Below are positions 736 to 57,349 of a stretch of 64,000 nt of DNA, one piece after another (positions within the stretch are counted from its first letter, which is position 1; every line of letters begins with the position of its first letter). This DNA comes from Mesotoga sp. Brook.08.105.5.1 (GTDB lineage: Bacteria; Thermotogota; Thermotogae; Petrotogales; Kosmotogaceae), in the NCBI RefSeq assembly GCF_002752635.1, contig NZ_AYTW01000017.1:62001-126000 (forward strand). The letters are read 5' to 3'. A program made the position numbers and the translations under genes. The notes under the pieces are model-generated. The model was not told the origin of the DNA. It ran no database searches and worked only from the letters and a program-made list of their open reading frames with translations.

Positions 736-800
736 TCACTTCATTTCTCTGAAATCCTTTCAGATAGCTATTTCTTGCTTGCTCAGTTCGGGAACTTCAG
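1..800 (+). mobile_element. Right end of an IS4/IS1634-type insertion sequence
   Basis: The element comprises the transposase 3' end and a short non-coding tail. Its right border is placed between about 780 and 815, because the downstream minus-strand gene loses family similarity there and stops at 783. The terminal inverted repeat cannot be confirmed because the left end is outside the window, so the border is approximate. Confidence 0.5.
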
Positions 801-1259
801 GTTAGTGATTGCCGCATCGAAACCTGCTCCAACAACGTTTACTGCATATCTAGTTGAATTAGTGCCGTTGAAATCTTTGAAGTTTACCCTTAGCAGGTCG
901 ATCTCGCGAATTCTCTTTCCAGATGCTATTTTCACCATTTCTCTGTAGTCTTGTTCAAGGTTTATGGCTCTCGCGAGATCATTCCCTGAGCCAACGGCGA
1001 CTATGCCGATAGAAGCTCCCGAATTGCCAGCTTTCATTCCGTTTATGACCTCATTCAGAGTCCCGTCTCCGCCAACACTTATTATTCTCTCGTAGCCGCT
1101 GTTAAGAGCCACAAACTGCAGAGCATCACCTATACCCGTCGTTATGTGTAGGTCATAATCACCAAGTTTTTCGCGAATCAGTTCGGAGATGTAGCTTTCA
1201 AACTCACGGCCTGCTTGACCATGACTGGCATTTGGATTAACTACTACGAGCGTATTCAA
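783..1259 (-). pseudogene. Lipid/diacylglycerol kinase-like gene (LCB5/YegS type), 3' truncated by the IS
   Basis: The 158-residue product begins MNTLVVVNPNASHGQAG and contains the GGDGTLNEVING nucleotide-binding motif (near residues 62-73) and the VGSGNDLAR motif of the diacylglycerol kinase catalytic domain. Complete YegS/LCB5-like lipid kinases have roughly 300 residues, so only the N-terminal catalytic lobe remains. The last residues before the stop at 783 probably come from the end of the insertion sequence. The start is TTG with a good GGAGGT site 7 bases upstream. It follows kamE in the same direction after a gap of 49 bases and may be cotranscribed. It is probably non-functional, since the second lobe of the fold is missing. 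Confidence 0.75.
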
Positions 1260-1308
1260 AACACCTTACCTCCGCTTAAGCTACGATGGTAGATTCTATC
1301 ACAAGTTA

Positions 1309-2088
1309 TCAGACCACAGACTCGAGTTTGTGGACAATGAAACTTGCTACATCTTCAGCAAAAGTGCCTGGCCCGAATCCCGCATCGTATCCCAATTCCT
1401 TTGCCAGTTCATGAGTTATTCTTGCTCCACCTGCCACCAAAACGATCTTCTTCCTAATGTTTTCCGCTTCAAGAAGCTCCACAAGGGCAGTCATATTCTT
1501 CAGATGAACGTTCTTGGCAGTTACAGTTTGAGATACCAGAATAGCATCGGCATTTAGTTCAATTGCCCTTGCTACCAACTCCTCGTTTTGGACCTGGCTA
1601 CCTAGATTGTGAGCATCTATGTTCCTGTATCGTTCCAACCCATAGTGACCTGCAAAGCCTTTCATATTCATTATTGCGTCAATGCCAACAGTGTGAGCGT
1701 CCGTTCCTGTGCTAGCTCCAACCACAACTACCTTTCTCCCTATCCGCTCTTCAATGAACCTGTCGATCTCCTCCATAGACAGTTTCTCCATTGCTATCTT
1801 GGGAACTCTAATAGAAGTGTAGTCAACTGAATGGGAGGATTCTCCGTATGCTACAAAAAAAGTGAATCCGGTCGTCATCTCTCTTGAAAATGAGATCTGA
1901 GGATTTTTTAGGCCCATCTTTCGCATCAATAATCTGGCAGCCTCATCGGCCTCGGGACCTCCAGGTAGAGGAAGAGTAAAGCTGAGCTGAACTTTGCCGT
2001 CGTTCATCGTGTCTCCGTAGGGAGTGATCCTGGTGAGATCTACTGCAGCAGGAAGTTCATTCTTTTTGTATGAGTTTTTATCCATCAT
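1309..2088 (-). CDS. kamE: Lysine 5,6-aminomutase, beta (B12-binding) subunit
   Basis: This subunit works with KamD to move the terminal amino group of beta-lysine, giving 3,5-diaminohexanoate; the enzyme needs adenosylcobalamin and PLP. The 259-residue protein carries the base-off cobalamin motif DAHTVG (D130-H132-G135). The lysine in MNMKG is K143. These line up, one residue offset, with cobalt-ligand His133 and PLP-Schiff-base Lys144 known for the clostridial beta subunit. A Rossmann-like B12 domain follows to the C-terminus (GYDAGFGPG). ATG 2088 was chosen because GGAGGGAGTT precedes it; the reading frame could extend to a TTG at 2100, but that lies inside the ribosome site. It overlaps the end of kamD by 11 bases, which suggests translational coupling. 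Confidence 0.95.
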   Translation of the reverse strand: MMDKNSYKKNELPAAVDLTRITPYGDTMNDGKVQLSFTLPLPGGPEADEAARLLMRKMGLKNPQISFSREMTTGFTFFVAYGESSHSVDYTSIRVPKIAMEKLSMEEIDRFIEERIGRKVVVVGASTGTDAHTVGIDAIMNMKGFAGHYGLERYRNIDAHNLGSQVQNEELVARAIELNADAILVSQTVTAKNVHLKNMTALVELLEAENIRKKIVLVAGGARITHELAKELGYDAGFGPGTFAEDVASFIVHKLESVV

Positions 2089-3640
2089 AACTCCCTCCAA
2101 GCATCTTCTCGATAAATGGATTCCTGTAGCTGTTTCCCTTTTTTTCGACTCCCTCCAGTCCTTTTCCGCCGTGGAGTGATCGCTTTATGTTTGCAAAAGT
2201 CCCCTTCTCTAGTGTCTCAAACAAACCTACTGATTGAATTTCCTTCAGTAGATCCACGGCTTCATCTAACACTCTGGAAGCTCTTTCCTGGATTATGCCA
2301 TCTTCTTTGAATACTATCTCATCACTAAGATTTCGCAGGTTATTGAATATGTACCGTGCGTTTTCAATTGCAAGGTACCTGTCGCTCATGAAGGGAGTGT
2401 GAATCGCTTCAGTAAGCATTCCAAGGAGTTGAATGCCTTGATTAGTCATGATGGAAATCACATTGAAAAGAGTATCCTGAGCGTAACCCATGAAGATGTT
2501 TCCTGTCATGAACTTTGTAGGAGGCATGTATTTCAGTGGCGCCTTCGGAAATATCTCCCGGCTCATCTGCGCTTGAGCAAGTTCGTACAGGAAGCCGTTT
2601 TCTATTGAGGGATCCATTTCAAAAGCGTGCCCAAGACCCATCTGTTCCTCGGGAATACCTGCCATTAATGCCAGCCTTTCGTTTATGAACTGGGAAGCCA
2701 GTACCGTGTGGGCTTCTTCATAGGCATCGGCAGTAGTCAGGTAGTTATCTTCACCGGTGTTGATTATTACTCCGGCGAATCCATTAATGACCCTTGAAAA
2801 GTATTGGTCGATTATGGTCCTCTTCATGTTTATGTCTCTGAACAAGATACCGTAAAGGGCATCGTTCAGCATGACATCAAGTCTTTCAATAGCTCCCATT
2901 GCCGCAATTTCCGGCATGCAAAGTCCGGAGCAATAATTACAGAGCCTGATATATCTTCCTACTTCTTCTCCAACTTCATCAAGCGCAGACCGCATTATTC
3001 TGAAATTCTCTTGAGTGGCGTATGTTCCACCGAAACCTTCCGTTGTCGGTCCAAAGGGGACATAATCCAGAAGGCTCTGCCCCGTCGATCTGATTACTGC
3101 TACTATGTCGGCGCCTTGCCTTGCTGCCGCCCTTGCTTGAACCACATCCTCATAAATGTTTCCAGTTGCTACTATCACATAGAGATAAGGTTTCTTGCCT
3201 TCACCCAGTTCCTGTATAAGAGAGTCGCGCTTAACTCGATTCAAGCGAATCTTCTCAACTGTCTCTTCCACTAAACCGTCGATAGCTCCAAAGACTTCGA
3301 CTTCAGGTCGGTAACCGAGACTTCTCAGGTCAAGTCTGCCATGTGAGATCTCCTCAGCAATTCTCTGTGGAGAGAGACCGGTTACGAGTATGGCATTGCC
3401 TATTGCGTATGCTGCGCCTTCGCTTAATAGGTTCGCGGATTTGAGGTGATCGACAACTACGTTTGACATTGGAACACCGTACTCATCGACTCCATCTATC
3501 CCGAGAAGCCTACATATTGCTCTCTCTACACTAACTGTAGTATGTTCGTTGACGAAATTGTGCACTGCATCAGCTATCTTTCGAGAGTAATTCCGCGCTT
3601 CTTCTACTTTATTCCAGTCTAAGTTCAGTTTTCCTTTCAT
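2078..3640 (-). CDS. kamD: Lysine 5,6-aminomutase, alpha subunit
   Basis: This 520-residue TIM-barrel subunit forms the active enzyme with KamE and handles D-lysine or beta-lysine in the second step of lysine fermentation. The sequence aligns throughout with known KamD proteins by eye, with characteristic stretches such as VRSTGQSLLDYVPFGPTTEG, RLCNYCSGLCMPEIA and FINERLALMAGIPEEQMGLG. Length is usual for the family. Its ATG overlaps the stop codon of kamC (ATGA), and its own 3' end overlaps kamE, so expression of the subunits is tied together. No defect is visible. Confidence 0.95.
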   Translation of the reverse strand: MKGKLNLDWNKVEEARNYSRKIADAVHNFVNEHTTVSVERAICRLLGIDGVDEYGVPMSNVVVDHLKSANLLSEGAAYAIGNAILVTGLSPQRIAEEISHGRLDLRSLGYRPEVEVFGAIDGLVEETVEKIRLNRVKRDSLIQELGEGKKPYLYVIVATGNIYEDVVQARAAARQGADIVAVIRSTGQSLLDYVPFGPTTEGFGGTYATQENFRIMRSALDEVGEEVGRYIRLCNYCSGLCMPEIAAMGAIERLDVMLNDALYGILFRDINMKRTIIDQYFSRVINGFAGVIINTGEDNYLTTADAYEEAHTVLASQFINERLALMAGIPEEQMGLGHAFEMDPSIENGFLYELAQAQMSREIFPKAPLKYMPPTKFMTGNIFMGYAQDTLFNVISIMTNQGIQLLGMLTEAIHTPFMSDRYLAIENARYIFNNLRNLSDEIVFKEDGIIQERASRVLDEAVDLLKEIQSVGLFETLEKGTFANIKRSLHGGKGLEGVEKKGNSYRNPFIEKMLGGSYDG

Positions 3641-5010
3641 TCACAGCCTCCCACGATATTGCCTTTTATCAGCTCTATGAATTTTTTGTCAAGTCCCATA
3701 ATACGGGCGATTGCAATAGCCTCCTTCGGAAAGATTACTTTGTCCCTCATTTCTATAAGTGAGTGGTCAACGTAGTAAGAAATCTCCCTGTCTCTTTCGG
3801 TTTCAATTCTGTGGTGATCAACACCTTTAATCATAAATAACTGGGCGGAGTTGATTTGGAGTGCCTCCTCGTAATGAGATGTGAAAATGGAGCGGCACTT
3901 GGGGTTGCGACCGAGATAATCGGCAGAGGCTATCAAGAAAGCGGGACCTTCAACAGGATTAGTGCTCCGACCGATCTCGTCGAACAGGAACAGGCCCGCG
4001 ATTTCCGCTTGAACTATCTCGATTGCTTCTTTCAGGTGTTGAATTTCTCCCGCAAACGACGACAGACCATCGGTGAAAGACTGTTTGTCCCCGCTGAAAT
4101 AAACCACCGACTCGTACACGGGAATAAAAGCTTTATTTGCAGGAACAAAGAGACCGTACTGAAACATTGTTTGAAGAAGAGCGACACTCCTGAGAAGAAC
4201 GGATTTCCCGGTCATGTTACCGCCAACGATGACAACCTTTCGTCCAAAGTTTGCTGAAAATGGCTGGAACTCCTTCCCCTTTTTTCTGAGGCTCTCGGAT
4301 ATCTCTGGATTGAAGAGGTCTTCGAACTCATACTCTCCAGAAGAGATTTCTGGTTTCCTCAAGCCTAGCTTCTTATTCAGATCGGTGAGAGCGATTACTA
4401 GGTCTATGTTTCCGGTCTTGTTAATCGCTTCCTCGAGGACGTCACGATACTCTCTTAGTCTATCCGAAAGATCGGCTCTCACCCTCCTCTCAATCTCGAA
4501 GTTCTTCTGAACAAGTTCATCAAGACTCTTGGTATGTTCTCCACCTATTCGCTGTAACCTGTGAAGCTCCTCCCTAACCTCACCGAGTGCATCGTCGAAG
4601 TTATTGGAGATATAGAAGCTCTCTGTTTGGGAATTATCAGGGTCTAGAATTGAAAATACGGGCGAAAGGCATGGGAGTTGCATCCATGAGCCGCAAGTGC
4701 CTAGTTCTTCCCTAAGCTTTTCGCACCAGTAAGTGAAGCTCTTGATTTCAAAGAGCTCTATATCCTCAAGCAAATTTCCACCGGAGAGGTTTGAGATTGT
4801 CCCCCTAACATCCCGGATCCTTGATAAAATTCGCTTAAGTGAAGGTACGATCTCTTCCTTCTTGAGAATCTCCTCTTGCCTTCTGTGAATTTCTTCTATT
4901 GACTTTCTGGTGGTAAGAAAGGTGAGGTTGCGCAGCGCCTCTCTTCCAATAGGTGTTATTGGCTCAATGAGAGAGATTATGTATTCAAATCCGCAGTCAA
5001 GGTATTTCAA
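3637..5010 (-). CDS. kamC: MutS-like ATPase of the lysine fermentation cluster
   Basis: This 457-residue protein has the C-terminal ATPase domain of the MutS family: Walker A GGNMTGKS, Walker B LFLFDEIG followed by RSTNPVEG, and the TSHYEEAL segment. It lacks the N-terminal mismatch-recognition domains of MutS. In the described Fusobacterium and Clostridium lysine clusters such a gene (kamC) always sits with kamB and kamDE, and the pair is thought to reactivate the aminomutase by exchanging damaged B12; that role is inference from gene context. The start is TTG at 5010, overlapping the kamB stop (TTGA), with GGAGGA about 9 bases upstream. A central helical part (residues about 120-200) looks like the MutS lever. 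A DNA repair role is unlikely. Confidence 0.85.
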   Translation of the reverse strand: MKYLDCGFEYIISLIEPITPIGREALRNLTFLTTRKSIEEIHRRQEEILKKEEIVPSLKRILSRIRDVRGTISNLSGGNLLEDIELFEIKSFTYWCEKLREELGTCGSWMQLPCLSPVFSILDPDNSQTESFYISNNFDDALGEVREELHRLQRIGGEHTKSLDELVQKNFEIERRVRADLSDRLREYRDVLEEAINKTGNIDLVIALTDLNKKLGLRKPEISSGEYEFEDLFNPEISESLRKKGKEFQPFSANFGRKVVIVGGNMTGKSVLLRSVALLQTMFQYGLFVPANKAFIPVYESVVYFSGDKQSFTDGLSSFAGEIQHLKEAIEIVQAEIAGLFLFDEIGRSTNPVEGPAFLIASADYLGRNPKCRSIFTSHYEEALQINSAQLFMIKGVDHHRIETERDREISYYVDHSLIEMRDKVIFPKEAIAIARIMGLDKKFIELIKGNIVGGCE

Positions 5011-6011
5011 TTTGCCGTCTCCTCCAGAACATCGATTACGGGAACACTGACAAACTTCTCCAGGGCTTCTACAAGCTCTCTTGACTTGACACTGAAACCT
5101 GTTGGCGAATAAGGGTTCACCGTTACCGCGATGAGATTGGCTGGATAAACAACTTCAAGTCTTCCTCCGGATCTTTCGTACTTCACGAGAGTCTGTTCGT
5201 CAACGAAAATACATGAAAAATCTCTAATTACTACTCTCGTTCCGGGTTCTGCAAGACGAAGCAAAACGGAAGATGTCAGTGATCCGTTTATGTAGATTGT
5301 TTTCCCCACAGTATCTGTGCTTGAGTACGATGCTGTCAAGGATGAGGAGGATAGTCTTTCAAAGACCCCATTATCATCTATCCATACACCGATCTCGAGG
5401 GGGAGTAGGCGATTTCGGAGCTCTCTTTCTGCACCGGGAAGAGAGATCAGCTTCACCGCAAAACGTGTCTTTCTTACTAATTCTTCTAAGTTCATCGACA
5501 GAGCGGCACCGGTTGCAAGGATTAATCCGTCCGATATTCGTGGAGCTCCGGGGCTAAGTCTCGATGTAGAACCATCTATAAGAACCTTATCACAGCCATA
5601 GGATTTCAACGTCTTTACAGTTTCGCACAGATAGTCCAGAATAGATGGCCCCGAAATTATTACTTCGCCAGCAGTCTCTGCTCTTGCGAAGACCGTTCTG
5701 CCGAGAGGGGATCTGTAATCCCTCAGGTCTAACACAGTGGCGGAAAACCGTCGGTTGTGGAAGTCCTTCTCGGATGTTGCGAAATAAGTGCCTTTACTGA
5801 CATTGATCTCGGGCTTTTTATTCAGGAAAATCTGGTCTATCTTCTCACCTTCAAGTCCCGTTGATGTCAGTCCAACAGAGACTCCCTCTTTTCTAAACTC
5901 TCTCAACAGCCGATTAAGTACGACCGTCTTACCGGTGTTCTTTTCCAGGCCGATCACGGATACTGTTTCAATTCCATCGGTTAATTCTATGACGCTGATG
6001 GGAGGTCTCAT
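5007..6011 (-). CDS. kamB: P-loop protein of the lysine fermentation cluster, putative aminomutase-reactivation partner
   Basis: The 334-residue product has an N-terminal P-loop, GLEKNTGKT (residues about 22-30), and a Mrp/CobQ-like look in the first 60 residues. The rest has no motif I can name. In known lysine clusters a protein of this kind (kamB) precedes the MutS-like gene, and both are suspected to keep lysine 5,6-aminomutase active. Its ATG overlaps the stop of the MaoC-like gene (ATGA), and its end overlaps kamC. The assignment rests on P-loop plus gene order rather than on a biochemical signature. Confidence 0.75.
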   Translation of the reverse strand: MRPPISVIELTDGIETVSVIGLEKNTGKTVVLNRLLREFRKEGVSVGLTSTGLEGEKIDQIFLNKKPEINVSKGTYFATSEKDFHNRRFSATVLDLRDYRSPLGRTVFARAETAGEVIISGPSILDYLCETVKTLKSYGCDKVLIDGSTSRLSPGAPRISDGLILATGAALSMNLEELVRKTRFAVKLISLPGAERELRNRLLPLEIGVWIDDNGVFERLSSSSLTASYSSTDTVGKTIYINGSLTSSVLLRLAEPGTRVVIRDFSCIFVDEQTLVKYERSGGRLEVVYPANLIAVTVNPYSPTGFSVKSRELVEALEKFVSVPVIDVLEETAN

Positions 6012-6418
6012 TCTCCAGTGAAGAGCAGCAATGCTTCGCCGTCAACTGCCTTCTCTCCATTGCTCTTCTCGACAGTTGTACCAACCAGTAGTCTCTTTTT
6101 CTCTTCGTTTTTCTCGAGGATTTCGATAGTGATCTTCACTTCCTCTTCCAAAAAGATTGGCTTCAAGAACTTGACTTCTTGTTTCATGTAGATAGAACCC
6201 GGTCCAGGAAAGTCATTTCCAAGGATGGCCGAGATGATTCCTACAGAAAGCATCCCGTGAGCTATCCTCCTTCCAAAACGTGTGTTTTTCGCGAATTCTT
6301 CGTCAGTATGAACAGGATTCTTGTCGCCAGTCAACTCGGCAAATGAATCTACCATAGCTGTTGTGATCACTCTCTTTGTAGAGAAACTTTTGCCTTCATA
6401 GAAATCTCGAAATCTCAT
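6008..6418 (-). CDS. MaoC-like (R)-specific enoyl-CoA hydratase, embedded in the lysine cluster
   Basis: The 136-residue hot-dog protein shows the MaoC hydratase motif with catalytic Asp and His: [16 protein letters not shown], then [10 protein letters not shown]. Proteins of this type hydrate trans-2-enoyl-CoA to (R)-3-hydroxyacyl-CoA. It lies between kamA and kamB with four-base overlaps on both sides (ATGA at 6415-6418 and at 6008-6011), so it is a true operon member. The likely substrate is crotonyl-CoA made by Kal, giving (R)-3-hydroxybutyryl-CoA; this is inference. The start was set at ATG 6418 rather than further upstream because of the stop-start overlap with kamA and the preceding GAAGGTGA. 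Confidence 0.85.
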
Positions 6419-7683
6419 TTCTTCACCTTCTTTTCTTTCCACTTCTTAATTCTTTCTCTTCTCTGAAGGGTCGTGGGTTCGAAACTCATGGAATTTCCAT
6501 AAAGAAGGTCGGAGACACCCGTAAACTCGTATTTCTCTTTATAGAGACTGTCATCAACGTCGCTGGAAGTATCCTCCGGCTCATGATACGTGGTGATTAC
6601 TCCTTCATAATTTCTTAGAACGACTACTCTATCTGACTCGGAGATGTTGTACTGGGGCATCACTCTAATCTTACCGCCTCCGCCAGGGGCATCGACCACG
6701 AACGTTGGAACGCATAGTCCCGAAGTATTTCCAATCAAAGACTCCATGATTCCTATTCCTTTCCTTATGGAAGTTCTGAAATGGCCGATGCCTTGTGAGA
6801 GGTCACACTGATATATGTAATAGGGTCTAACTCGTATTTTGACAAGCTGGTGTACGAGCTCCATCATTATGTAGGGGGAATCATTCACTCCTCGAAGGAG
6901 AACGGATTGATTTCCCAACGGTATTCCTGCATCAGCGAGCATTTCGCATGCTCTCGTAGAATCGGGAGTGATCTCCAGTGGATGGTTGAAATGAGTGTTA
7001 ATCCAAATCGGGTGGTATTTTCTCAGCATTTCTACAAGTTCGGGAGTCACTCGTTGGGGAAGAACGACAGGTGTCCTGGTGCCAATTCTGATTATCTCCA
7101 CGTGGCGGATCTTTCTCAGCTCGCTAAGAATGTACTCGAGATATTCGTCTCCTACAAGCAATGCATCTCCTCCGGAGAGCAGCACATCTCTTACCTCTGG
7201 GGTTTGCCTAATGTATTCAAGTGCATCGTCAATTTCCTTTCTCGTTCTTGGCTTATCGAGTTGACCGGCAAATCTTCGTCGTGTACAATGCCTACAGTAC
7301 ATCGAGCACTGGTCTGTAATTAGAAAGAGGACCCTGTCGGGATATCTGTGAGTGAGTCCCGAAACCGGAGAGTCTTCATCTTCATGAAGTGGGTCAATCA
7401 TATCCCATCTGTCGATTCTCAGTTCCTTGTCCGTGGGAACTGCCTGCCTTCTTATCGGGCATCTTTGATTGATTGGGTCCATGAGAGTTGCATAGTACGG
7501 TGTAATTGACATTCGAAGTGTTCTAAGGCACTCGGCAATTCCGAGGGCCTCTTCTTCGGTGATCTCAATGATCTGCCTCAGACCTTCAACCGACTTCACT
7601 CTGTTGGCAACCTGCCAGCGCCAGTCACTCCATTGAGCAGTAGTAACCTCTTTCCACATTGGAATTTCCCTGTAATCTCGCAT
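6415..7683 (-). CDS. kamA: L-lysine 2,3-aminomutase
   Basis: This radical SAM/PLP enzyme converts L-lysine to L-beta-lysine, the first step of the pathway. The 422 residues include the cluster motif CSMYCRHC (CxxxCxxC), the GGDALL segment, and all three residues that define the lysine enzyme: Asp in YQCDLSQG (Asp293 in the clostridial enzyme), Asp and Lys in [10 protein letters not shown] (Asp330 and PLP-binding Lys337). Length and ends agree with the family. It starts nine bases after kdd with GAGGTGG as ribosome site. A second, divergent KamA-like gene lies at 53579-54682. Confidence 0.96.
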
Positions 7684-7692
7684 TGCTCCACC

Positions 7693-8724
7693 TCAAATGT
7701 ATAGCTTCTGAAAAAGCCTTCTAATACTGTCTGATTCTCTCAAAATGTCCAACGCAAGCTCATCGTGGCCTTTGGTGTACCCGTTCCCGATGATCATGGT
7801 AATATCCTTCCCGACACCTTCTGCTCCTAGGGCCGCTCTGGTAAAGGAGGTGGCCATGCTGAAGAAATAAACTATGCCTTCGTTTTTGGTAACGAGTATC
7901 GAGCTCATCTCAGTGTTGGGAACATTCACATTGTTTACTACCACATCACAGAGCTTACCTGCTGTCAGTTCGTGAATCTTATTGTAAACTTCAAGAGGCT
8001 TTGTTGCATCTGCAATAACTACCTCATGGGCAAGGTTAAGCTCTCGGATCCTCTTCGCATTTTCTTCAGAATATTCTACTACAATCACTTTTCCTGAGTC
8101 ACCGCATTTCTTCATCGCTTGGTAGCAACATAACACTCCGGATTTTCCGCCACCCCCAAGTATTGCTACACTCATACCACGCTGCACAAGCTTGTCGACT
8201 TGCGCCGGAGCTCCCGCAACGTCCAGAACTGCAAGGGCCATCTTAGCGGGAATATCTGATGGCAGTTTTGCGTATATCCCACTCTCAAACAGTATAGCCT
8301 TCCCTTCGACATCCACCTGATCTTTTTCGAGATGCACCTTCAGAATCCTCTCGATTTTCAGCGGCGTCAAGGATAGCGAAACAAGTGAGGCAATTCTGTC
8401 GCCAACTTCTAATTTACGGTCTTTAAGGGCTTCTCCTATCCGCGAGACTCGACCAATTAGCATTCCTCCTGAGCCTGTAACTGGATTCTGAAGCTTCCCC
8501 CTATTGTTGACTATATCGATTATCATGGCAGCGATTCCCAATTCATCGTCTTTGCAAGCTTCTCTCATCTGGGTGAAACTAGCGGAGTCAACGTTAAGGG
8601 TTTCCACATCAACGGAGATTTCATTGTCATAAAGATCCTCTGAGTTGTCAATTTTTCTCGCTGCTTGAGGGAGAAATCCGAGCGGCTCAATAACTCTATG
8701 GCTCCCAAATGGGCATCCCTTCAT
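7693..8724 (-). CDS. kdd: L-erythro-3,5-diaminohexanoate dehydrogenase
   Basis: This 343-residue dehydrogenase oxidatively deaminates 3,5-diaminohexanoate to 3-keto-5-aminohexanoate with NAD(P)+. The start [14 protein letters not shown] and the motifs NPVTGSGGMLIGRV and AILGGGGKSG (dinucleotide-binding loop, residues about 186-195) are typical of Kdd. The protein is a remote relative of medium-chain dehydrogenases. Its ATG overlaps the kce stop codon by four bases. It stands between kce and kamA, the same neighbours as in described clusters. Confidence 0.93.
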   Translation of the reverse strand: MKGCPFGSHRVIEPLGFLPQAARKIDNSEDLYDNEISVDVETLNVDSASFTQMREACKDDELGIAAMIIDIVNNRGKLQNPVTGSGGMLIGRVSRIGEALKDRKLEVGDRIASLVSLSLTPLKIERILKVHLEKDQVDVEGKAILFESGIYAKLPSDIPAKMALAVLDVAGAPAQVDKLVQRGMSVAILGGGGKSGVLCCYQAMKKCGDSGKVIVVEYSEENAKRIRELNLAHEVVIADATKPLEVYNKIHELTAGKLCDVVVNNVNVPNTEMSSILVTKNEGIVYFFSMATSFTRAALGAEGVGKDITMIIGNGYTKGHDELALDILRESDSIRRLFQKLYI

Positions 8725-9545
8725 TTATCTTTCCTCCTAATTCCAAGTATTTCTCTTGCTTCGTTAGGAGCTGCTATGTCTCTGCCCAACTCTTTTGCGA
8801 TTCTCACTACTCTCTCCACCAGCTGAGCGTTAGAAACCGCAAGCTCTCCCCTTCTATAGTAGATATTGTCTTCAAATCCCACTCTAACATGTCCTCCCAT
8901 CAGGATGGCAACTGTTGCCAAAGGGAGCTCATACCTACCAATTCCTGCTGCGGTCCAGGTACTGTCAGTCGGTATATTGTTAACCATGTGAATCAGGTCT
9001 TCGATATTCCCTGGGCAGGCACCCGGAACACCAAGAACAAAGTCAAAGTGTATTGGGCTTCTTAACAGTCCTTTTTTTTGCAAACGTAGAGCATTTTCTA
9101 TCATGCCTCTTTCAAATACCTCTATCTCAGGCTTTATTCCTTTCTCTTTCATCTCCAGAGCGAAATACTCCATTGTTTTCTCTGAATTGAAGAAGACATC
9201 ATCTCCAAAGTTGCACGTTCCGGCAGAGAGGGTCGCCATCTCCGGATTGATCTCAAGAGGTTGAGATCTCTCTTCCACTTTATGCCATACTGCTCCACCG
9301 GTGGATGGCTGGAATATCAGATCGCACTTGCTTCTGATTCTTTCCATGATTTCTCTATAGATTTCACGATCTTGTGTGGGCTTTCCAGACGAGTCTCTTG
9401 CGTGAACGTGGACAATGCTCGCTCCTGAGAGAAAACAATCGTATGCTGCCTCCGAGATTTCTTCAGGAGAAACCGGTAGCGCCGGTTGTTGTTTTTTCGT
9501 GACTTCTGCACCGGTAAGAGCTGCAGTGATTATCAACTTATCCAT
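8721..9545 (-). CDS. kce: 3-keto-5-aminohexanoate cleavage enzyme (BKACE family)
   Basis: The 274-residue protein belongs to the DUF849/BKACE family, zinc-dependent TIM barrels that exchange acetyl-CoA for a beta-keto acid head. Here the products would be acetoacetate and 3-aminobutyryl-CoA. The zinc-ligand pair is seen in SIVHVHARD (residues about 44-52), and the C-terminal [11 protein letters not shown] segment is the family signature. It overlaps kal by eight bases and kdd by four, consistent with one transcript. Confidence 0.93.
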
Positions 9546-53578: not shown

Positions 53579-54682
53579 TTAAACAAGAGTATCTGGATCT
53601 ACGTAGTCTTCCAGCCAATAGGCATCAGGATTTCTATCGAAAGCCATAAAGAGATCGTATCTTCTGGGATCTGCGGCTCTATGGTACTTCATATATATTT
53701 TGTTTTCATCAAGACCTACATATTCAATCTTTCCCGTTGCATGAGACATAACAAATCGAGCTCTCTTGGCAAGGCCCGAGACACCGTCTATCGACTTCTT
53801 GAAGATTTCGTAACCTCTTTCGGCAGGGACTGCGTAGGTGTGATTGCCTTTTGTAGGTCTGCACTGGAATACATAATAAGGGGGAATCCCAATGAACGAG
53901 AGCTTCTTGAATAGATCTGTCATGACCTCAACGCTGTCGTTCACTCCTCTTATCATAGGTGTTTGGTTGCATATTACCGCTCCGGCATCCCTCAAAATGT
54001 TTAGGCCCTTTACCGCTTGATCTGTCAGTTCTCTCGGGTGGTTAAAGTGGGCCATTATATAGATTCTCTTCTGTGGAGTACTGTACTTACTGATCATTTC
54101 TGGCAGATCGGGATCGTTTATTATCCTATAAGGATTGAATGCAACCATTTTACTCCCGAACCTTATTATGCCCACGTGATCTATTTCTCTTAGCTGTCTC
54201 ACAATGTCACCGAGTTTTTCTGTGGATAGTATTAGTGAGTCTCCTCCTGTGAGAAGAACATTTGTAATCTCTCTGTGTTTCCTAATATACTCTATTCCTG
54301 GCCTGACGTCATTCACTACCTCTTTGTTGTCTGTCGAAAAGAGTCTCTTTCTAAAGCAGAACCTGCAAAAGCTTCCACAGACCTTCGAAACAAGGAGCAA
54401 AGCAGTATCTGTGTACTTGTGTTCCGTTCCAGGGGCTACAGCATACTTGTGCTCCTGAGAAGCATCCAAATCCCCCCACTCGTCGAGTTCTTCAAGATCG
54501 GGAACGATTATCCTCTTTATTGGGTCGTGAGGATTATTCCAGTCAATAAGTCCCAGATAATAGTCGTTGGCCCTAAAGGGATAGACTTCCGTAACCCTTC
54601 TTATTTCTCTTATCCGTTCTTCACAAAGGCCCTCGATTTTGTCAACACTTGTGAGGTATTTAGGACTATGCAAATTCACCAC
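53579..54682 (-). CDS. KamA-family radical SAM protein of unknown substrate
   Basis: The 367-residue protein has the cluster motif CGSFCRFC (CxxxCxxC), LLTGGDSL and the family core RGVNDSVEVM. At the position of lysine 2,3-aminomutase Asp293 it has Arg (FQCRPTKGN), and the Asp330/Lys337 region reads MSHATGK, so the lysine is kept and the carboxylate is lost. It is thus a PLP/SAM enzyme of the aminomutase group but not a lysine 2,3-aminomutase; it belongs to a widespread subgroup without assigned function as far as I know. It is also shorter at both ends than KamA. It is a single gene between two terminators. Confidence 0.85.
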   Translation of the reverse strand: MVNLHSPKYLTSVDKIEGLCEERIREIRRVTEVYPFRANDYYLGLIDWNNPHDPIKRIIVPDLEELDEWGDLDASQEHKYAVAPGTEHKYTDTALLLVSKVCGSFCRFCFRKRLFSTDNKEVVNDVRPGIEYIRKHREITNVLLTGGDSLILSTEKLGDIVRQLREIDHVGIIRFGSKMVAFNPYRIINDPDLPEMISKYSTPQKRIYIMAHFNHPRELTDQAVKGLNILRDAGAVICNQTPMIRGVNDSVEVMTDLFKKLSFIGIPPYYVFQCRPTKGNHTYAVPAERGYEIFKKSIDGVSGLAKRARFVMSHATGKIEYVGLDENKIYMKYHRAADPRRYDLFMAFDRNPDAYWLEDYVDPDTLV

Positions 54683-55050: not shown

Positions 55051-57258
55051 CTATTCGGTCACTAGAATGATATTTCCCATGTAATCGCCTGCAGGAGAGT
55101 ATATCTTTCTGTTGAGTTGAGAATCAACATCATCAAATACCGCAGTACCGATTAAAGTATCTCCCGATTCGTTGACCGCGAAGAAGTGAATCTCATTGAA
55201 GTCGAAGATCCAGTCTGTTTGAATTACTGACTGTCTTTCCCGAGACAGAATCTCGTGCTGACCAGCAACGATTCTTACCAAATCACTATCAACTGAGCGA
55301 AGTGCATATGAGATTATCGTTACCTTTTCTGAGGTTTCAACCATAACTGTGAATCGATTCTCTGTTTTCATTCCCTTTTCGTCCATGACTTCCAGGAGGA
55401 CCTCATTCTTTCCGATATCTTTTCTGGTGGGAATGAATGAATACCTCCCTTCAACTACTTCGCCAGGTCCCGACAAAAGTCTGAATTCAAGATTATCGCC
55501 ATCTGGATCGCTCGCGAACTCTCTAAGGTATAAAGAATACTCGCTTCCTACCTCCGCGATGCCGTCTGGTATGAATAGATCTGCTGGTCTGTTCTTGTCT
55601 CTCACGTCTATTCTAATAAGAAGGCTATCCGACAAACCGAGGCTGTCGTATGCAGTGACAGTGGCGAGTTTCTGCCCCTGGTCGTTGTAGCCGGGAGAGA
55701 ATACATAACTGGACTCCTCTATTCTTCCATAACCTTCCATCTCAAACTCAAGATCATCTCCATCGGGATCGAAAAAGAGACTGCTCAGGTCCAGGTTAAG
55801 GGTGAATGTCTCCATAATCGTTGTATTCAGCGAAGGGATGACCTTGACAGGGGCTCTGTTCACGTTCTCAACGTCCACGGTAAATGTGCCGATGCTTTCG
55901 AGTCCCTTGCTGTCTCTGGCAAGCAATTTGACTTCATGAGTGCCTTCTGAGTCGAAATCGGGAGAGTAAAGATAGTGACCATCTTCGATCGCGCCGGGTC
56001 CTTCAACGATTTCGAAATCCAAATCATCTCCATCGGGGTCGAAAACGAAAGCCCTGAGATATATCCTTAAGGTCTCACCCTCTTTAACTCCCCAATCTGG
56101 TATAGATACTGTTGGCGGTCTGTTGACTTCGTTCACTCTTATTCTAAAAGCTGCAGTACTTGTTCCACCCTTCTCGTCTTCCAGGAATACTGTAACAGAT
56201 TCCTCGCCAGCTTCGCCGAAACGAGGAGTGTACTTGTACTTGCCATCGACAATTTCTCCCGGTCCTTCGATAGCAAAGCTTACCTCGTCTCCATCGGGAT
56301 CGATAACCCTTTCGACGAAGTCAATTTCCACTGTATCGCCCTCGTTCAAGACGATGTCACTTAAGAGAAGCTTTGGGGGACGGTTAAAGTCTTTGACTTC
56401 GACCTCGAAGCTTGAAAAGGCTTCGTTCCCGTAACTGTCTTCTACCCTGATAATCACGCTCTTCGTTCCAGCATCTGCAAAAGAAGGCTCATATACGAAT
56501 AAACCATCTTCAAGTAGTCCAGGACCTTGTTCTATACTGAAGAAGATTTCATCTCCATCTACGTCGACGACAGCAGAGGCAATATCCACCGATATACGTT
56601 CTCCCTCGTTGACTACTTGATTCTTGATTTGCATTACTACTGGTGGAGCATTGACATCAATGATTTCGAGTGGAATGTCGCGAGCTGTCTCATTACCGTG
56701 AGTATCTCTGGCAATTACTCTCAAGACGCCATTACCGGCATCGTTGTAGCCTGGGGAATAGGTGTAGATACTTCCTTCCAGCTCGCCCGGCCCCTCAACC
56801 GAGAATTCCAGGTTGTCTCCATCTGGATCAACGGCAATTGAATTCAGGTCTATAGAAAGCGTCTCTCCTTCATTCACTACAACAGGAGATGTATCGATTT
56901 CGGGAGGTCGATTCACCCTTATCACATTAACAAGCATTTCATCTTCAGAGCTCTTTCCTTGTTCATCCGTTGCGCGAATCCTGACAGCGATCTCCCCAGC
57001 GTACGAAAACCCTGGTTCAAAAGTGTAAGAAAAGCCAGACAAAACACCGGGCCCATCTATCAGTTCAAGAGCAACCTCGTCAACTTTTTCATCACTGACA
57101 AATTGCTTCAGATTCACAGAGAGCTTTTCACCCTGGTTGACCACCTGCACAGGTAATTCTATCTGCGGCTCCTTGTTTAGGACTCCGGGAAGCGTAATAA
57201 TAAGTATTATTGCAGCCACACCAGCAACAACTAGAACGTAGACCATCCATCTCTTCAT
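55051..57258 (-). CDS. Membrane-anchored protein with seven cadherin-like/Ig-like repeats
   Basis: The 735-residue protein starts with a single membrane segment (VYVLVVAGVAAIILIITLPG) and no clear cleavage site, so it is probably anchored with the bulk outside. Seven repeats of about 85-90 residues follow. Each has VVNEGETLSIDL-like, DPDGDNLEF-like and YSPGYNDAG-like elements and ends in VNRPP or a variant; the first repeat lacks the DPDGD calcium-type motif. A unique domain of about 95 residues (from VTIISYALRSVDSDLVRIVAG) ends the protein. It may serve in envelope structure or adhesion. ATG 57258 or 57264 is the start. Confidence 0.85.
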   Translation of the reverse strand: MKRWMVYVLVVAGVAAIILIITLPGVLNKEPQIELPVQVVNQGEKLSVNLKQFVSDEKVDEVALELIDGPGVLSGFSYTFEPGFSYAGEIAVRIRATDEQGKSSEDEMLVNVIRVNRPPEIDTSPVVVNEGETLSIDLNSIAVDPDGDNLEFSVEGPGELEGSIYTYSPGYNDAGNGVLRVIARDTHGNETARDIPLEIIDVNAPPVVMQIKNQVVNEGERISVDIASAVVDVDGDEIFFSIEQGPGLLEDGLFVYEPSFADAGTKSVIIRVEDSYGNEAFSSFEVEVKDFNRPPKLLLSDIVLNEGDTVEIDFVERVIDPDGDEVSFAIEGPGEIVDGKYKYTPRFGEAGEESVTVFLEDEKGGTSTAAFRIRVNEVNRPPTVSIPDWGVKEGETLRIYLRAFVFDPDGDDLDFEIVEGPGAIEDGHYLYSPDFDSEGTHEVKLLARDSKGLESIGTFTVDVENVNRAPVKVIPSLNTTIMETFTLNLDLSSLFFDPDGDDLEFEMEGYGRIEESSYVFSPGYNDQGQKLATVTAYDSLGLSDSLLIRIDVRDKNRPADLFIPDGIAEVGSEYSLYLREFASDPDGDNLEFRLLSGPGEVVEGRYSFIPTRKDIGKNEVLLEVMDEKGMKTENRFTVMVETSEKVTIISYALRSVDSDLVRIVAGQHEILSRERQSVIQTDWIFDFNEIHFFAVNESGDTLIGTAVFDDVDSQLNRKIYSPAGDYMGNIILVTE

Positions 57259-57349
57259 AAACATCCCCCTTTCTATCTAATCGAAACCTGAGTTCGTTGT
57301 ATTGATTGACCTAAATGTTTTCATTTCGTGGACGTCAGCTTCTGTAAGC

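Follow-up and report, generated by a model that had tools for sequence, protein, structure and literature searches.

The window, the whole 64,000-nucleotide stretch of a Thermotogota genome (Kosmotogaceae) under analysis, encodes two enzymes of the KamA family of radical-SAM/PLP aminomutases, raising the question of which amino acid is converted by the second of these. Exactly two KamA-family genes occur in the genome, in keeping with an earlier note on this DNA, which had called this protein a second KamA-like enzyme. The other gene (6415-7683, minus strand) codes for an ordinary lysine 2,3-aminomutase with both D293 and D330. It is localised in what reads as a lysine-fermentation cluster (783-9545, minus strand), the ordinary setting for this first KamA, together with what we take to be the lysine 5,6-aminomutase subunits, a MutS-like protein and Kdd- and Kce-like proteins. 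The second gene is an open and intact frame of 367 codons (53579-54682, minus strand) with a GTG start codon and an alternative TTG start 12 nt downstream (at about 54670), the latter being better matched to the AAGGAG site. An operon reading was rejected, as an acyl-ACP thioesterase gene faces the gene in convergent orientation and about 370 bp separate it from the gene just upstream; it is monocistronic and located 44-51 kb from the lysine-fermentation cluster. The upstream gene (55051-57264, minus strand) codes for a 737 amino acid protein with tandem Ig/cadherin-like repeats (Big_9), which is probably exported.

The 367 amino acid protein matches the Pfam family Radical_SAM, scores above the cut-off of the KamA family profile TIGR00238 (203.1 versus 199.2 bits) and contains both the CxxxCxxC motif and the PLP lysine (K337) of this family. 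It is not covered by any NCBIfam equivalog, with every score lying far below the cut-off. Assignment to lysine 2,3-aminomutase (TIGR03820; 219 versus 525 bits) was rejected, the protein having R293 and lacking D330, as was assignment to arginine 2,3-aminomutase (TIGR04468; 200 versus 600 bits), which requires D293 where R293 is found, and to EpmB (TIGR03821; 165 versus 369 bits), no efp or epmA neighbours being present in the window. The score to the AblA-like-2 profile is 205 bits against a cut-off of 396. Orthology with the glutamate 2,3-aminomutase Eam, the identity which the earlier note had set against its own reading, is likewise rejected by sequence (TIGR04368; 221 versus 650 bits), with R293 and a deletion in place of K293 and N330 and a position in a different deep clade. 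The sole PDB sequence match is the lysine 2,3-aminomutase 2A5H, which is also the clear best Foldseek match (TM 0.78, E 2e-29; runner-up E 1e-5) of the AlphaFold2 model (pLDDT 93, pTM 0.91). The window protein shares the fold, CxxxCxxC motif, R134 and K337 with KamA/AblA (2A5H, TIGR03820), but has lost D293 and D330 and shows only 29-33% identity.

Residues are numbered here after the Clostridium subterminale KAM (2A5H) through an alignment of 117 family proteins. The 4Fe-4S/SAM motif CGSFCRFC (codons 102-109; 54356-54379, minus strand) corresponds to KAM C125/C129/C132, R111 (54350-54352, minus strand) to R134, which binds the amino-acid carboxylate, and K318 to K337, the PLP Schiff-base lysine. 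The motif and R134 are conserved in 95 of 95 members of the clade to which the protein belongs (R-clade), and K337 in these and in all 74 members of a second set. Along with C125, C129, C132, R134 and K337, Q258 is invariant among the 95 aligned members, and P294, F133 and K112 are also common to all of them. In QCRPTKGN (codons 273-280; 53843-53866, minus strand), R275 takes the place of Asp293, the ligand of the lysine epsilon-amino group in KAM, while MSHATGK (codons 312-318; 53729-53749, minus strand) stands in for the KAM loop DAPGGGGK, with the loss of D330. Clade-specific basic residues corresponding to KAM 324, 325 and 327 are contributed by KRAR (codons K306-R309; 53756-53767, minus strand), and most clade members are basic at these three positions. 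D330 is absent in all 95 members, where MSHxxGK replaces DAPGGGGK, and R293 is found in 95 of 95 and in 73 of the 74 members of the second set, drawn from other phyla (168 of 169 altogether). The charge reversal at 293 is conserved clade-wide and is no private mutation of the window gene. The single aligned member without R293 (L299; G204:C1:2270993-2272066) has Met there and is perhaps a diverging or decaying copy.

The earlier note had described the PLP lysine and 4Fe-4S motif as kept, Asp293 as replaced by Arg and Asp330 as lost, all of which the alignment bears out. The anion-binding side-chain pocket it proposed would be the natural reading of a protein in which the lysine-binding acids are gone, residue 293 is basic, the residues for the cofactors are retained and none of the equivalogs applies. 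Activity on lysine is suggested by the automatic annotation of relatives as lysine 2,3-aminomutase and by ablA-ablB genes adjoining the R-clade gene in one locus (L108). It is nevertheless very improbable, as both acidic lysine ligands are lost in every member and one has been exchanged for Arg in all but one of those aligned, while an AblA with D293/D330 is already encoded next door in L108 and AblB is found near the R-clade gene at no other locus.

The known glutamate enzyme was recovered among the homologues (L115; 716 bits to TIGR04368, above the cut-off) and carries K293 and N330, the residues which Ruzicka and Frey are said to have described for the Clostridioides difficile Eam in 2007. 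Since Eam has K293, acid specificity through a basic residue at position 293 has a precedent, with a different residue. Like the window protein, Eam (TIGR04368) is a radical-SAM/PLP KamA enzyme with a basic residue at KAM 293 and no Asp330; it differs in having Lys and Asn where the window protein has Arg and a deletion, and in grouping with the lysine enzymes (SH-aLRT 100). The window protein and Eam probably catalyse the same reaction, the conversion of glutamate to beta-glutamate already known for Eam. The undescribed radical aminomutase predicted in the earlier note would probably stand as far as the clade is concerned, no description of which was found in the open-access literature searched, and less so for its likeliest reaction, which is known from C. 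difficile. A further glutamate-2,3-aminomutase-like protein (L117; G263:C76:1909-3117), with K293, lies within an open frame of 926 amino acids and may be joined to a further domain.

From R293, the Eam precedent, the existence of beta-glutamate as a known solute and the dicarboxylate symporters encoded beside some homologues, we infer glutamate as the substrate, and we give a probability of about 0.6 to the window gene encoding a glutamate 2,3-aminomutase which makes the osmolyte beta-glutamate. Following the chemistry of the family, L-glutamate would form an external aldimine with PLP, released from K318, with R134 holding the alpha-carboxylate and R293 (window R275), perhaps together with the basic residues at 324 and 327, holding the side-chain carboxylate at the site where KAM uses D293/D330. 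SAM would be cleaved by the 4Fe-4S cluster to a 5'-deoxyadenosyl radical that takes a hydrogen at C3, and the amino group would shift from C2 to C3 via an azacyclopropylcarbinyl radical, yielding beta-glutamate (3-aminoglutarate). Poorly metabolised, this product would serve as an anionic compatible solute, made in one step and balancing K+. An osmotic-response 2,3-aminomutase acting on another substrate, such as glutamine, aspartate derivatives or N-acylated or other anionic amino acids, and producing another beta-amino-acid solute, would also be in line with R293, which tells only of a probably anionic or polar side chain, with the many positions at which the clade differs from Eam (R112K, R116T, T133F and the loop deletion) and with ion/osmotic regulation, which is substrate-neutral. 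This we consider unlikely, given that dicarboxylate symporters adjoin the R-clade gene and that, among anionic beta-amino acids, beta-glutamate is the one known as an osmolyte of methanogens (PMC1224877).

A maximum-likelihood tree of 88 sequences (quick search without bootstrap, root not fixed) separates KAM, GAM, ArgAM, EpmB and AblA-like-2 (SH-aLRT 100) from the R-clade together with rhizobial and actinobacterial R293 proteins (SH-aLRT 100). GAM, the true glutamate 2,3-aminomutase (K293/N330), is nested in a group of lysine enzymes of the first side, and the charge reversal at 293 therefore apparently arose twice, in a tree whose root is not fixed. As a single group excluding the rhizobial and actinobacterial rows, the R-clade proper has a support of only 64%, and these rows, EpmB and AblA-like-2 form poorly placed long branches. 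The inclusion of EpmB in the same family raises the prospect of protein modification, as by EpmB/EpmA on EF-P, or of a radical-SAM enzyme other than an aminomutase. Such a role is highly unlikely, however, with EpmB retaining D293 and grouping with the other clade, no EF-P or EpmA neighbour seen and the PLP lysine invariant in the R-clade.

Members of the R-clade with 54-63% identity are encoded in archaea (Methanomicrobiales and Methanosarcinales/ANME) and in Nitrospinota, Nitrospirota, Planctomycetota, Calditrichota, KSB1, Zixibacteria, Latescibacterota, Acidobacteriota, Desulfobacterota, Actinomycetota and Campylobacterota, with one member in the Bacillota at 51% identity. Several genomes have no KamA gene besides that of the R-clade, which is therefore more than a mere paralogue of lysine aminomutase. 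Judged on its sequences, the R-clade is a separate and widespread KamA clade, distinct from the known enzymes. Two R-clade genes are present in some genomes (L039 and L104 on the same contig; L064 and L248 in G112), where the surrounding ion or osmolyte genes differ between the copies, a hint that each copy may be regulated separately.

A Pfam tally of 105 near neighbours comprises 190 families, each of them with four members at most, and no constant or dominant operon partner of the R-clade gene was found among these 105 neighbours, which fits a one-enzyme, one-step pathway from glutamate. Ion and osmolyte functions are encoded beside the gene in a minority of loci, a theme that is qualitative. 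The R-clade gene of L108 adjoins a TrkA-type K+/H+ antiporter gene as well as ablA-ablB, and a K+/H+ antiporter also adjoins L248, the second copy in the L064 genome. A cation-chloride cotransporter and a P-type ATPase are encoded near the gene in L104 and L090, TreT, a trehalose phosphatase and GT20 in L101, and GT20 in L293. A Na+:dicarboxylate symporter gene overlaps the R-clade gene by 17 nt in L064 and is located two genes away in L097. The window gene itself has no osmotic neighbour.

Rfam scans of the window and of about 690 kb surrounding about 96 homologues returned, besides tRNAs, four matches in three loci and no other riboswitches, and each of the four immediately precedes an R-clade gene, on the strand of that gene. 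In Paenibacillus cellulosilyticus (L113), a c-di-AMP riboswitch (RF00379; 80.5 bits, E 9e-17) is found 147 nt upstream. In two actinobacteria, the proteins of which carry QCRPTxGN and SHATGK, an nhaA-I RNA (RF03057) occurs about 99 nt upstream (L188) and tandem nhaA-I RNAs are present with the nearer one about 57 nt upstream (L189). By our own estimate, one match within a 150-nt leader would arise by chance in about 1 in 100 cases, and matches in three independent loci in about one in a million. The c-di-AMP riboswitches report osmotic and K+ state. The nhaA-I RNAs are the Li+-I riboswitch class, which controls cation transporters (PMC9646797), while the osmoprotectant targets of Na+ riboswitches include ablA and eam (beta-glutamate) and a tandem Na+/c-di-AMP switch has been described on ablA (PMC9337991). 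No riboswitch was detected in the leader of the window gene or in the Thermotogota loci, for the window at gathering or E<=1 thresholds, and no further ones were found in 20 Thermotogota and other loci, 20 Desulfobacterota loci and 16 other loci. Taken together, the riboswitches and neighbours of the homologues point to salt or osmotic adaptation.

The R293 proteins of actinobacteria and rhizobia share Arg293, the MS..GK loop and the side of the deep split with the R-clade, but differ in their NRPS, luciferase-like monooxygenase or ATP-grasp contexts and show 31-40% identity. Several of the actinobacterial genes (L174-L182, L147, L149, L203 and L211) adjoin NRPS, P450 or luciferase-like monooxygenase genes, and their products may supply some unknown building block of the beta-amino-acid type. 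On rhizobial plasmids (L146:4911-8527 and L145), the R293 gene occurs with ATP-grasp ligase genes in what looks like a small natural-product locus, near which an AblA-like-2 gene is located in L146. Given these sister enzymes, R293 need not signify glutamate specificity everywhere. In incednine biosynthesis, IdnL4 is likewise proposed to convert glutamate to beta-glutamate, but it belongs to secondary metabolism; the need for it was confirmed by gene disruption, while activity was not seen in vitro (PMC11284099). No IdnL3-like beta-glutamate decarboxylase was recognised by eye beside the actinobacterial R293 genes in ten loci. The sister contexts, the enoyl-CoA hydratase and 3-hydroxyacyl-CoA dehydrogenase genes flanking the R-clade gene in L087 and the lysine-fermentation cluster of the window organism would favour a glutamate (or other) aminomutase with a biosynthetic or catabolic role, in natural products or fermentation, unrelated to osmotic stress. 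Such a role is quite unlikely, however, as the window gene stands alone and far from that cluster, the R-clade proper lacks a shared biosynthetic partner and the only riboswitch matches upstream of its genes are of ion or c-di-AMP types.

That marine methanogens contain beta-glutamate as a solute has been known since about 1990, and the compound has been reported in Thermotoga too, while to our knowledge the enzyme for its biosynthesis has not been settled. Martins et al. reportedly found in 1996 that T. neapolitana builds up beta-glutamate with salt and that T. thermarum and F. islandicum contain no organic solutes. The R-clade gene is presumably present in T. maritima, T. neapolitana, T. petrophila, Thermosipho melanesiensis, Petrotoga mobilis, Kosmotoga olearia and Mesotoga prima, and presumably absent from Pseudothermotoga thermarum, P. 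hypogea, Fervidobacterium nodosum, F. pennivorans, Defluviitoga tunisiensis and Kosmotoga pacifica. Of those without the gene, P. thermarum, Fervidobacterium and Defluviitoga are low-salt organisms. A simple salinity rule fails, however, because K. pacifica, a marine vent organism, also lacks it and freshwater methanogens carry it, the gene being found in Methanocorpusculum labreanum, Methanoregula formicica and a fen Methanoregula. The main evidence against the beta-glutamate reading comes from methanogens, in which, according to Roberts (2005), early NMR labelling had excluded that beta-glutamate is made by a glutamate aminomutase; a CoA pathway was proposed in that review (PMC1224877).

There is about an even chance that the R-clade is the general source of a beta-amino-acid osmolyte, whether beta-glutamate or an unrecognised anionic one, in many anaerobic bacteria and methanogens, having arisen independently of the C. 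difficile Eam through a second charge reversal at residue 293 and being miscounted as lysine 2,3-aminomutase when osmolytes are surveyed. If its enzymes do make beta-glutamate, one gene would account for this solute across many phyla and the archaea, and would serve as a marker by which it could be traced genetically in sediments and digesters, while automatic annotations predicting N-epsilon-acetyl-beta-lysine would be corrected. Specificity for acid side chains would further have originated a second time among the radical aminomutases in this clade, with R293 and the absence of D330 as a simple signature.
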